The position numbers were made by a program, and so were the translations under genes. A stretch of DNA of 64,000 nucleotides, from the NCBI GenBank assembly GCA_024681475.1, contig JAILAT010000037.1, forward strand, positions 1 through 64,000. Direction: 5' to 3'. A model generated the notes under the pieces. It did no database searches and was not told the DNA's origin. It saw only the letters and a list, made by a program, of their open reading frames with translations. Of this stretch, positions 2,768-34,149 are shown one piece after another (the first letter of the stretch is position 1; every line of letters begins with the position of its first letter). This stretch comes from Bacteroidales bacterium. Lineage in GTDB: Bacteria > Bacteroidota > Bacteroidia > Bacteroidales > P3.

Positions 2768-3334
2768 ATGTCGTTTGTTGAAATCATACTCCTCTCTCTG
2801 GCGCTCTGTGTCGACTCGTTGGTGGTCTCCACGGCCAGCGCCTTCAAAAGCAAGATGTCCTATCGGCGTGGCCTGCTGATGGCGATGATTTTCGGCTTCT
2901 TTCAAGGCCTTTTCCCCTTGTTGGGAGCTCTGCTAGGCTCGGCTTTCAAGGATCTTATCGAAGCCGTTGACCACTGGATTGCTTTTGGATTGCTGCTGCT
3001 CATCGGTGGCAAGATGATTTTCGATGGGCTTCGTAACGCGCAGGAGGACAAGGGGCTGGATGTTACAAAGATTTCGGTTCTCTGTCTGCTGGGTATTGCC
3101 ACTTCCATCGATGCCTTTGTGGTGGGCATTGGCATGGGCTTGGCCAACAGCCTTCAGCAGTGCGTGCTTGCCGCAGCTGTCATCGCCGTAGTGACTGCTA
3201 TCGTCTCCTTGGTGGGACTCTTCCTGGGCAAACGTCAAGTGCCCATCCCCGAGAAGGTGGCTTCCGTTGTCGCTGGCCTGGTGCTCATCGCTTTGGGTAC
3301 CTACACCCTGATAGAGCATTTGTTGGCGCTCTGA
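2768..3334 (+). CDS. mntP: manganese exporter MntP
   Basis: A 188-residue inner-membrane protein with about six hydrophobic helices that exports Mn2+ and protects against manganese overload. The two halves each carry a conserved acidic motif in a helix, CVDSLVVS near the N-terminus and SIDAFVVG about residue 117, characteristic of the MntP (formerly YebN, DUF204) family and thought to bind the ion. The ATG at 2768 is preferred over an in-frame TTG six bases earlier. In other bacteria mntP is often under a yybP-ykoY riboswitch, but only 17 nt separate it from the preceding gene here, so it is probably read from the upstream promoter. Confidence 0.9.
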   Translation: MSFVEIILLSLALCVDSLVVSTASAFKSKMSYRRGLLMAMIFGFFQGLFPLLGALLGSAFKDLIEAVDHWIAFGLLLLIGGKMIFDGLRNAQEDKGLDVTKISVLCLLGIATSIDAFVVGIGMGLANSLQQCVLAAAVIAVVTAIVSLVGLFLGKRQVPIPEKVASVVAGLVLIALGTYTLIEHLLAL

Positions 3335-31488: not shown

Positions 31489-32238
31489 ATGGACAAAAGG
31501 AATCTATTGCTGATAAGCAACTCTACCATGCGCGGCGAGGCTTACCTCGGATGGTGCAAGGTTATGATTGCCGACTTCTGCCGTCGGCATGATGTGAAAA
31601 AGGTGCTCTTTGTGCCCTACGCCGGCGTGAGCCTGGCCGAAGGGGGACTCGCCAAGAGCTACGACGCATACGAAAAAAAGGTGGCGGCAGTATACGCTGA
31701 ATTTGGCGTGAAGCTCACCAGTGTGCACCACAAGGCTCTGCCCATCAACGCGCTGTATGACACCGACTGCGTGGCTGTCGGCGGCGGCAACACCTTCCAC
31801 CTTGTCCGCGAACTGCAGCGCACAGGCCTCATGCAGGCCATCCGTCAACGCGCTTTCGACGGTATGCCCTATATGGGCTGGAGCGCTGGCAGCAACGTCG
31901 CTGGCCCCACGCTCTGCACCACCAACGACATGCCCATCGTCATGCCCGCCTCGTTCGACTGCATGGGTATCGTGCCCTTCCAGATCAACCCGCACTACAC
32001 CGACTTCTTCGACCCCAAGCACGGCGGCGAAACCCGCGACGACCGTCTGAAAGAGTATATTATGGTGAATCCCAAGGCTACCGTCGCTGCCATCCGCGAA
32101 GCTACGGCACTGCTGCTCGAAGACGGCAAGCTGAAACTCATCGGCAAGCCCAACAAGATGAAGGTCTTCAAGACCAAGATGGAGAACACCAAAGAGTACG
32201 GCCTCCGAAGTAATATCGATTTCCTGCTGAAGGCATAA
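31489..32238 (+). CDS. pepE: dipeptidase E, alpha-aspartyl dipeptidase
   Basis: A 249-residue serine peptidase of family S51 that splits N-terminal Asp-X dipeptides. The nucleophile Ser lies in MGWSAGSNVAGPT (about residue 131), within the G-W-S-A-G-S motif, and FQINPHYTDF supplies the His; the early segment LLLISNSTMRGEAYLG is typical. It follows gyrB by 20 nt on the same strand and ends at a terminator, so it may be read from the gyrB promoter. Confidence 0.93.
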   Translation: MDKRNLLLISNSTMRGEAYLGWCKVMIADFCRRHDVKKVLFVPYAGVSLAEGGLAKSYDAYEKKVAAVYAEFGVKLTSVHHKALPINALYDTDCVAVGGGNTFHLVRELQRTGLMQAIRQRAFDGMPYMGWSAGSNVAGPTLCTTNDMPIVMPASFDCMGIVPFQINPHYTDFFDPKHGGETRDDRLKEYIMVNPKATVAAIREATALLLEDGKLKLIGKPNKMKVFKTKMENTKEYGLRSNIDFLLKA

Positions 32239-32481: not shown

Positions 32482-32940
32482 CTATTTTATGCGTTGGTTC
32501 TGCTCTATCTGGGATAGTAAGCTGATGATGGGAAGCATGAAGAAAAGCATATATCCAAATACACTACCGCTGATGATGGCGGTTGTATCGCTATTAGCCA
32601 ACAGACCCAGTAGCATCGTGAATCCTGCCAGAATTGTTACTGCGAGGGAAAATTTATACCAGGAATTTTTTCCCGAAGGCTTGTCTGTCTCGATTGTTTC
32701 CGATGAGGGGATGTGACGCTTGAGCTCTTCAAAGTCTTCATCCGAAATCTCGATGGGTATGAACCGGTAGCGTTTTTCTTCCTCGTCCTTTTCAGGATAG
32801 TCTTCCTTCTTGCCGCCTTTGGGCTGATACTCGATTTCTCCAAGCCCCAGTTGTTTCAGGACACTGTTTTTTTCTTGCTCATATCTTTCTCGCTCGTGGG
32901 CTATCTGCTCGTTGATGTAGTTCTGTGCTTTTTCGTTCAT
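32482..32940 (-). CDS. small two-helix membrane protein, unknown function
   Basis: A 152-residue protein. The first 95 residues are highly charged and partly coiled (IAHERERYEQEKNSVLKQL, then an acidic/basic stretch), followed by two membrane helices (VTILAGFTMLLGLLA and GSVFGYMLFFMLPIISLL). I do not recognise the family. The ATG at 32940 (MNEKAQ) is preferred; ten lysine-rich codons upstream are open. A predicted promoter at 33179-33210 on the minus strand would give it a leader of about 230 nt that folds into the long inverted repeat listed at 32989-33156. Confidence 0.65.
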   Translation of the reverse strand: MNEKAQNYINEQIAHERERYEQEKNSVLKQLGLGEIEYQPKGGKKEDYPEKDEEEKRYRFIPIEISDEDFEELKRHIPSSETIETDKPSGKNSWYKFSLAVTILAGFTMLLGLLANSDTTAIISGSVFGYMLFFMLPIISLLSQIEQNQRIK

Positions 32941-32988
32941 GATTGTCCTTTTTTTCTTTTTCTTCTGCACCTCGAAGAAAGCATATAA

Positions 32989-33156
32989 AAAGAAGCGTGG
33001 TGCTGATATGCCCTTCTTGATTGGAGGTTGTGAGAGGAACCTGAAGTTGAGAAGTTGTAATCAGTCCACGCCATAGAGCATGAACCGTTACACTCTTTCT
33101 GCAACTTCATTGAAACTCTCACATTTCCAATCACAGAATAAGCATAACGCTTCTTT
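32989..33156. repeat. long imperfect inverted repeat in a 360-nt intergenic gap
   Basis: The gap 32941-33300 has no convincing gene. Its centre is an imperfect palindrome: matching blocks on the two arms, outside to inside, are AAAGAAGCGT (32989-32998 with 33147-33156), GATTGGA..TGTGAGAG (33019-33036 with 33116-33132) and TGAAGTTG (33042-33049 with 33102-33109), with a central loop of about 50 nt. The arms may extend outward in weaker form to 32963 and 33180. It lies within the predicted leader of the minus-strand membrane-protein gene. It could be a folded regulatory RNA, or a decayed miniature element with terminal inverted repeats. Confidence 0.65.
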
Positions 33157-33178
33157 GATTTCCTTCTGAAATCAATTG

Positions 33179-33210
33179 CAAAAATACATACTTTTTGCAA
33201 CGTGGACAAA
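33179..33210 (-). promoter_or_regulatory. Bacteroidota-type promoter, minus strand
   Basis: On the minus strand, TTTG (33210-33207) is followed after 20 nt by TATTTTTG (33186-33179), matching TTTG-N19-21-TAnnTTTG. It points toward the gene at 32482-32940 and is back to back with the nfo promoter. Confidence 0.6.
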
Positions 33211-33215
33211 TTTTT

Positions 33216-33246
33216 TTTGCCATTCCGCCGAAAGTTCGTATTTTTG
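33216..33246 (+). promoter_or_regulatory. Bacteroidota-type promoter of nfo
   Basis: TTTG (33216-33219), 19 nt, TATTTTTG (33239-33246): an exact match to the Bacteroides housekeeping promoter, about 55 nt before the nfo start codon. It is divergent from the minus-strand promoter, with only five bases between their -33 boxes. Confidence 0.65.
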
Positions 33247-33300
33247 CATACGAATTAGTAAACAGGAATCAAGGGCCATTAACGTTATATTTAAACAACT

Positions 33301-34149
33301 ATGACAAAATACATTGGAGCTCATGTGAGCGCATCGGGTGGCGTGTGCAACGCCATTTTGAATGCCGAGGCTATCGGTGCCGACGCTTTTGCATTGTTTA
33401 CACGCAACCAGCGCAGTTGGGTGAGCAAACCGCTGGACCCCAACGATGTGGAGGCGTTCAAATTGTTGCTGCACGAGCGTGGCTTCAGTGCCGACCATGT
33501 GTTGCCGCACGACAGTTATCTTATCAATCTCGGCTCGCCCGACGAGGAGACGCTGCAGAAGAGCCGCGCCGCATTCCTCGACGAGATGCAGCGAGCGCAG
33601 CAGCTGGGGCTGAAGCTGATGAATTTTCATCCTGGTAGCCACCTCAACAAGGTTAGCGAAGAGGAGTGTCTGGACCAGATAGCTCGCGAAGTCAACTGGG
33701 CACTCAGCAGGACGGAGGGCGTGACGGCTGTCATCGAGAACACTGCAGGCCAAGGCACCAACCTGGGATGGCGTTTCGAGCACATCTCCCGCATCATCGA
33801 GGGGGTGGAGGATAAGAGTCGAGTGGGCGTCTGCATCGACACCTGCCATACGCTAGCTGCCGGCTACGACCTGACCACCGAGATGGGCTACAATTTCTGT
33901 TTCGATGACTTCGACCGCATTGTGGGATTCAAGTACTTGCGAGCCATACATCTGAACGACAGCAAGAAAGGCGCCGGCAGCCATGTCGACCGCCACGAAA
34001 GTCTTGGCATGGGCATGATGGGCAAAGAATTCTTCACCCGTTTCATGCGCGACGCGCGTTTCGACAACATGCCTATCATTCTCGAGACTCCCGACCCGAC
34101 ACGATGGGCCGAGGAGATAGCGTGGCTGCGCCAGTTGGAACGCAGCTAA
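33301..34149 (+). CDS. nfo: endonuclease IV (AP endonuclease)
   Basis: A 282-residue base-excision repair enzyme that cuts the backbone 5' of abasic sites, using three zinc ions. Signatures are [11 protein letters not shown] at the N-terminus, LMNFHPGSH (about residue 103), [13 protein letters not shown] (about 145), [16 protein letters not shown] (about 178), [21 protein letters not shown] (about 217) and PIILETPDP near the end. All metal-binding His, Glu and Asp motifs are present. It is a single gene with its own promoter and terminator. Confidence 0.97.

Follow-up and report, generated by a model that had tools for sequence, protein, structure and literature searches.

A folded RNA leader in a Bacteroidales genome, one copy of a large and apparently uncatalogued family in gut Bacteroidales

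The window, which is the whole stretch of 64,000 nucleotides analysed from a contig of a Bacteroidales bacterium, contains a gene slot that lies between a peptidase S51 gene and an nfo-like endonuclease IV gene (Table 1). The slot is occupied by a gene for a 152-aa protein. No Pfam family was found over the cut-off for this protein, and a protein scan of a collection of genome contigs returned no relatives of it. The gap upstream of its start codon had been singled out by a sequence-only reading, which proposed a Bacteroidota-type TTTG-N20 promoter on the minus strand and a leader of about 230 nt. The promoter is present at the proposed place, in the form TTTG-N20-TATTTTTG. The leader measures about 232 nt, since the gene starts at the ATG at 32940; the transcript start would lie at the 5′ hairpin H0. 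Judged from its sequence, the leader is likely to regulate the 152-aa gene. Two candidate leader peptides were rejected: a 90-aa frame opening with TTG across the leader showed no family above the cut-off, and a short ATG frame in the apical part was not conserved among the copies (by eye).

Table 1. Features of the window locus, in order of position.
Feature	Position	Strand	Basis or detail
Peptidase S51 gene, opposite slot flank	31489..32238	+	domain scan
Downstream gene, 152 aa	32482..32940	-	ATG at 32940; C-terminal end with two hydrophobic stretches (by eye)
Structured RNA core	32957..33153	-	covariance model R1, 171.5 bits, E 2e-41; the window copy is one of the 10 sequences building R1
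Hairpin P6	32959..32980	-	loop GGTGC 32971-32967 pairs with GCACC 33003-32999 (pseudoknot)
T tract, 5 T	32987..32991	-	immediately 3′ of P1; read in sequence
Strand d	32992..33005	-	pseudoknot strand GCACC 33003-32999 and P1 3′ strand ACGCTTC 32998-32992
Hairpin HB (AGGT/ACCT)	33025..33042	-	loop contains P3 3′ strand CTCTCACA (33036-33029)
Apical region	33066..33095	-	strand b 33095-33086, strand c 33072-33066
Hairpin HA (GAAA/TTTC)	33112..33127	-	loop within P3 5′ strand TGTGAGAG (33123-33116)
P2b 5′ strand TGATTGG	33127..33133	-	partner 33018-33024
P1 5′ strand GAAGCGT	33147..33153	-	rod fold partner 32992-32998
H0, small 5′ hairpin	33157..33173	-	GATTTC 33173-33168 / GAAATC 33162-33157; at inferred transcript start
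Promoter, Bacteroidota-type	33179..33210	-	read in sequence; TATTTTTG 33179-33186, 20-nt spacer, TTTG 33207-33210
nfo-like endonuclease IV gene, one slot flank	33301..34149	+	AP_endonuc_2

A repeat search recovered all of the mirrored complementary blocks that had been claimed for the gap, one with a match of 84% (32989-33007/33138-33156) and three with 100% (33018-33025/33126-33133, 33029-33036/33116-33123 and 33042-33049/33102-33109). The region between the blocks, previously read as a loop of about 50 nt, is present but mostly paired itself. For the minus strand of 32941-33172 the minimum free energy is -83 kcal/mol, and its shuffles average -51.3 (z = -7.58); the plus strand reaches -73 kcal/mol (z = -5.23). 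For either strand, none of 200 shuffles was as low. This difference between the strands fits an imperfect hairpin with G-U pairs that favour the minus one. Directly before the T tract, P1 forms a short stem with a long loop, and a terminator scan of 32900-33320 called no intrinsic terminator. The earlier statement that no known riboswitch motif is recognised agrees with Rfam 15, which gave no hits in the window at the gathering threshold. A permissive Rfam scan of 32900-33320 returned 13 matches, all far below gathering, and over the element in 20 + 20 loci holding relatives, Rfam 15 gave none at gathering level.

The covariance model R1 was built from ten leaders upstream of relatives of the 152-aa gene. 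The 152-aa protein was matched in 13 of 120 genomes of the genus, at 14 loci with the window's own counted, and the full RNA stands upstream in 10 of these. Another (L012) has a shortened RNA in which H0, P1 and the pseudoknot are kept by eye, and the other three (L014, L016 and L020) showed no RNA within 420 nt upstream of the gene. The shortened copy, L012:1360-1497, is a natural variant without the inner hairpin. At E ≤ 1e-3, R1 matches were found in 112 of the 120 genus genomes (58 of the 62 of good quality) and in 164 of 190 genomes of the family, including 53 of the 70 outside the genus; all counts at this threshold may include a few chance or antisense matches. The best match lies below 1e-20 in 87 of the 120. 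A sample of the order gave matches at E ≤ 1e-6 in 89 of 295 genomes and 59 of 184 genera. These genome counts are lower bounds, because only 8 to 20 candidates were scored per genome; with 55 candidates each in 45 genomes picked for having matches, up to 36 matches were found in one genome. Hits below about 30 bits were not taken as single evidence, because the antisense of the family's own copies scores 19-25 bits; the antisense strand of the window copy scores 25.1 bits.

The window genome itself holds only one strong R1 copy, and four others are weak (53.6 to 31.9 bits). The nucleotide search for other copies in this genome that had been suggested with the sequence-only reading returned no near-identical second copy by blastn; the other hits reached at most 40 bits and nearly all covered only a short part of the promoter and 5′ hairpin. 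When named genomes were scanned for the pattern, at least 117 stretches matched, and 15 of the 17 loci inspected resemble the RNA. By eye, RNA-like loci occur in Bacteroides rodentium, B. gallinarum, B. congonensis, Phocaeicola coprophilus and P. faecicola, and further in a Dysgonomonas, Leyella lascolaii, an Alistipes, an Odoribacter and a Rikenellaceae; the hits in Methylobacterium (L234) and UASB270 (L220) look like chance. Viral contigs gave four pattern hits, two of which are RNA-like by eye (L306 and L309) and two of which look like chance (L307 and L308). A blastn search of phage records gave no match for the window copy, and one of plasmid records gave none for the L023 copy. At L063, two copies stand in tandem (2077-2280 and 3001-3201, minus strand), each with its own gene behind it. 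The hairpin is one copy of a large and apparently uncatalogued family of folded RNAs in many gut Bacteroidales.

Class I was defined as the 73 copies that score above 100 bits, two of which come from other genera of the family. The TANNTTTG promoter box is found 15-60 nt upstream in 69 of them (2.4% at random positions), and the ATG of an ORF of at least 60 aa lies at +5 to +60 in 71 (21% at random). Of 70 class I copies, 44 have at least four T in a row within 12 nt after P1, as have 21 of 29 copies from other genera; among random 12-mers the share is 4.8%. The H0 hairpin is visible by eye in most class I copies. Across the sequences compared, the parts keep a fixed order, in which the promoter box is followed by the folded RNA of about 200 nt, in many copies by a T tract, and then by P6 with the pseudoknot and the start codon. 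In the final 40 nt before the ATG, several class I leaders carry alternative small hairpins by eye, either GCCG-ACAGTAAA-CGGC or CCC-GACACGTATTA-GGG, the stems of which change; both are missing from the window and from other copies.

That the leader folds, as had been proposed, is indicated both by its energy below shuffles and by covariation among relatives. In a plain MAFFT alignment of 10 relatives, RNAalifold predicted 62 pairs, 24 of which carry compensatory changes. Among 87 rows fitted to the model, 94.5% of cells are paired (81.0% shuffled), 723 cells are two-sided (210 shuffled) and two-sided changes occur in 42 of 57 pairs (31.4 shuffled), each at 0 of 500 shuffles, in an alignment that leans to the model and includes 14 rows that are weak, class II, antisense or downstream-hairpin matches. 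Partner swaps among the 73 class I copies gave none as good in 2000 for each of P1b, P2b, P3 and P6, and one in 2000 for the pseudoknot of GGYRC with GYRCC; P2b alone comprises 33 unique pairs and is 97.7% paired. The same swap test gave no support for P1 (402 of 2000) and P2a (667 of 2000); in the 87 model-fitted rows, all 4 pairs of P2a show two-sided changes. The aligned leaders show compensatory changes that preserve base pairs, and the predicted rod fold with its pseudoknot near the start codon is well supported by covariation.

The same strands can pair in a second way. The rod (a:d, P2b, P3, P4 and b:c) competes with two local hairpins (a:b with HA, and c:d with HB), in which CGTTATGCTT (33149-33140) pairs with 33086-33095, and the apical loops of the two local hairpins are complementary to each other. 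Taken alone, the halves of the window copy fold with -27.3 and -25.2 kcal/mol, and the whole core with -71.5. In 71 class I copies, the mean z is -2.34 for the first half and -3.83 for the second, with 55 and 71 copies below -1.5; in 25 copies from other genera, the means are -2.08 and -3.63, with 17 and 25 copies below -1.5. Each z rests on 30 approximate shuffles; these z-scores and the half alignments leave out two of 73 class I rows and three of 28 others in which the apical or 3′ strand is unrecognisable. When the class I halves were aligned separately, two-sided cells exceeded shuffles (54 vs 22 and 39 vs 19, 0 of 300), and the number of two-sided pairs exceeded them weakly (12 of 300) or not at all (219 of 300). 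Half 2 pooled with other genera gave no signal.

For the small hairpins, all rows were scored with P3 placed by the model, except two of 30 other-genus rows that duplicate class I rows. HA stems are fully paired in 65 of 77 rows against a swapped mean of 54.5; the mean score was reached in 0 of 2000 swaps and the fully paired count in 1 of 2000, and class I by itself gives a weak signal (97 of 2000). HB varies too little for swaps to be telling (74 of 2000), but it is paired in 69 of 78 rows, far above the 13.2 obtained with shuffled letters. In a free duplex search, a swap test of strands a-d that leaves out L056 gave 0 of 300 for each of a:b, c:d and a:d among 28 other-genera rows; the same three were indistinguishable from swaps within class I (28, 112 and 285 of 300) and within class II (115, 38 and 209 of 300). 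Co-variation was seen between the base that follows GCGTGG and the pyrimidine in the pseudoknot strand (Fisher p 7e-4); 67 of the 73 rows entered this comparison, and they are not independent of one another. Since each half folds alone and the loops are complementary, the RNA may be bistable; the local two-hairpin fold is moderately supported by these comparisons, and a switch between the rod and the local fold is a proposal built on the two together. A simple terminator/antiterminator exchange does not fit, because strand d is paired in both folds.

The genes behind class I copies are mostly small lipoproteins, membrane proteins and zinc-ribbon proteins by eye. Among 68 of them scanned, no single Pfam family occurs in more than three, and the 23 downstream genes scanned from other genera were likewise varied. 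A sister class (class II) was found by blastn with the L054 copy in 92 of 119 genomes at E ≤ 1e-3. Its promoter box lies 76-133 nt upstream in 16 of 18 copies, and its comparison leaves out five of 19 loci that lack the anchor string. Class II often precedes restriction-modification or helicase genes: in 17 first genes, N6_Mtase occurs in five, PLD, SNF2 and ResIII in four each and HSDR_N_2 in two, and PADLOC models agree with the restriction-modification domains. In at least one copy, L111, a secreted-type protein stands behind the class II RNA instead. No theme was found that is common to all downstream genes. The earlier claim of a leader of one gene stands as regards the leader, but the RNA belongs to a multi-copy family that precedes many unrelated genes. 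From its place behind a promoter and before very different accessory genes, the RNA probably controls genes in a way not yet described.

Some observations made at these loci are recorded here. Class II loci among L102-L120 share by eye a stretch of about 75 nt, A-rich and of similar composition, that runs from the promoter box to the RNA. Short family members precede a RibD/dihydrofolate-reductase-like gene by eye in Bacteroides congonensis (L229), Phocaeicola coprophilus (L226) and a Dysgonomonas (L198). Two Acido-Lenti-1 (RF01687) matches on opposite strands at L069 (2188-2233 and 2334-2379) lie outside the leader.

Comparison of flanks revealed that copies with a common upstream flank mostly have different genes behind the RNA. 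Of class I pairs, 43 have at least 400 nt of common upstream sequence that reaches the RNA. The first genes are unrelated in 37 of the 40 same-flank pairs in which both genes were called, and in 11 of 12 pairs with at least 90% upstream identity. In a second count, which leaves out one pair with both copies in the same sequence, homology breaks at +166 to +295 in 52 pairs. Where a pair had 2.5 kb or more of downstream sequence, homology returned past the gene in 11 of 13 cases. With promoter and RNA common to all copies, a break at the RNA end is in part to be expected on that account alone. The slot of the window is represented by three copies with three genes (L046, L049 and L075), or four with L048. 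Conversely, six near-identical gene pairs fall in different upstream clusters; in five of the six it is the upstream side that differs, because the downstream flank is shared. In 14 mosaic trios, the change lies at the RNA 3′ end in some and at the 5′ end in others. The slot beside nfo varies also without the RNA, as differing divergent genes are seen by eye among the 28 of 30 nfo loci that lack it (e.g. L156, L158, L165 and L174). RNA-driven exchange of genes is a possibility only.

Upstream of nfo on the opposite strand, L165, L166 and L169 carry by eye a different, mutually similar leader beginning with CCGTCATTG; it precedes lipoprotein-like genes in a slot equivalent to that of the window and may be another leader family. 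At the downstream slot edge of L084, tandem repeats of about 41 nt lie past the variable gene (about +1170 to +1416 from the RNA start), and repeat-like matches to them were seen in L074, L060 and L069.

Taken together, the window RNA is probably a member of a large Bacteroidales family of structured 5′ leaders that would act in cis on whatever gene follows. During transcription, the two local hairpins would form first and their loops would then kiss. From this kissing state the RNA could refold into the rod, in which the P1-P6 pseudoknot sits near the start codon. Some ligand, protein or condition would shift the balance between rod and local folds, and this balance might then decide read-through past the T tract, translation, or both. 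A simpler role would be that of a constitutive stabiliser, in which a non-switching rod guards the 5′ end of the mRNA or offers a fixed site for RNase III or another protein. The rod is indeed the best-supported fold; the local pairing of the halves, for which the evidence is moderate, the conserved pseudoknot and the internal loops exceed what a stabiliser needs, and this role is regarded as a minor possibility. Somewhat less probable still is a leader that serves chiefly as a small RNA: transcription would usually end at the T tract after P1 and release a folded RNA of about 190 nt that acts in trans, the genes being reached via read-through. The frequent T runs after P1 in class I and in other genera would suit such an RNA, and small RNAs derived from 5′ UTRs are reported in B. 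thetaiotaomicron (PMC7366714). However, the start codon lies within 60 nt downstream in 71 of 73 copies, the conserved P6 and pseudoknot lie past the T tract, and 32900-33320 is without a called terminator.

The different genes behind common flanks raise two further readings. The leader might be the fixed, bistable head of gene slots, in which promoter and RNA switch stay or travel while accessory genes are exchanged behind them, the restriction systems behind class II included; this reading has a low probability. If true, any captured gene would come under the same RNA control on arrival. That the RNA's folded single-stranded DNA also serves as an integron-like recombination site for gene cassettes is quite unlikely. 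The unrelated genes behind the same flank, the return of homology past the gene and the mosaics that switch at either RNA end would all be expected from such a site, but breaks at the RNA end are in part expected from the shared promoter and RNA, the nfo-side slot varies in its genes where the RNA is missing, and the G-U pairs favour the transcribed strand. Least probable by far is the suggestion, made together with that of a leader, of a mobile or decayed miniature inverted-repeat element captured upstream of the gene. Several copies in many genomes and the inverted-repeat look of the hairpin speak for it. Against it, the window genome has one strong copy and four weak ones. The suggestion is unsupported because the pairing is kept by compensatory changes and the RNA keeps one place and orientation, behind the promoter and ahead of the start codon.

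If the cis-acting leader is the right reading, gut Bacteroidales contain an abundant structured RNA that has been overlooked so far, together with a sister class that precedes restriction-modification genes. Its presence in named species of Bacteroides and Phocaeicola would make the RNA a regulatory element open to direct testing, and the control of newly acquired accessory genes might find an RNA answer in it.

No description of the RNA was found in the literature covered; the motif may already be printed under a number, because supplementary lists, subscription papers and preprints lie outside that coverage. A survey of human-microbiome candidate structured RNAs in gut bacteria lists 508 directly upstream of genes (PMC8040213); none like the window RNA was noticed in it, and an overlap with its supplementary list is possible. 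The FopS/GibS small RNAs are, like the window RNA, a multi-copy conserved family, with 12-15 copies per genome in Bacteroidaceae (PMC11697453). As described there, they consist of a single-stranded 5′ stretch and one terminator hairpin and act in trans, whereas the window RNA is a rod or twin hairpin of 200 nt in 5′ leaders; on the basis of that description only, the seed and single-terminator plan does not match, and identity with FopS was rejected. Bacteroidales-1 (RF01693) and Bacteroid-trp (RF01692), as far as they are presented in PMC2864571, resemble the window RNA as conserved folds tied to genes of Bacteroidetes. The window RNA differs from known structured leaders and riboswitches in having no Rfam 15 gathering match and many unrelated downstream genes. 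Integron cassettes with attC sites combine a fixed promoter, a long imperfect hairpin and exchangeable genes. The window RNA shares all three of these; in contrast to attC, its hairpin precedes the gene and its conservation fits RNA pairing.
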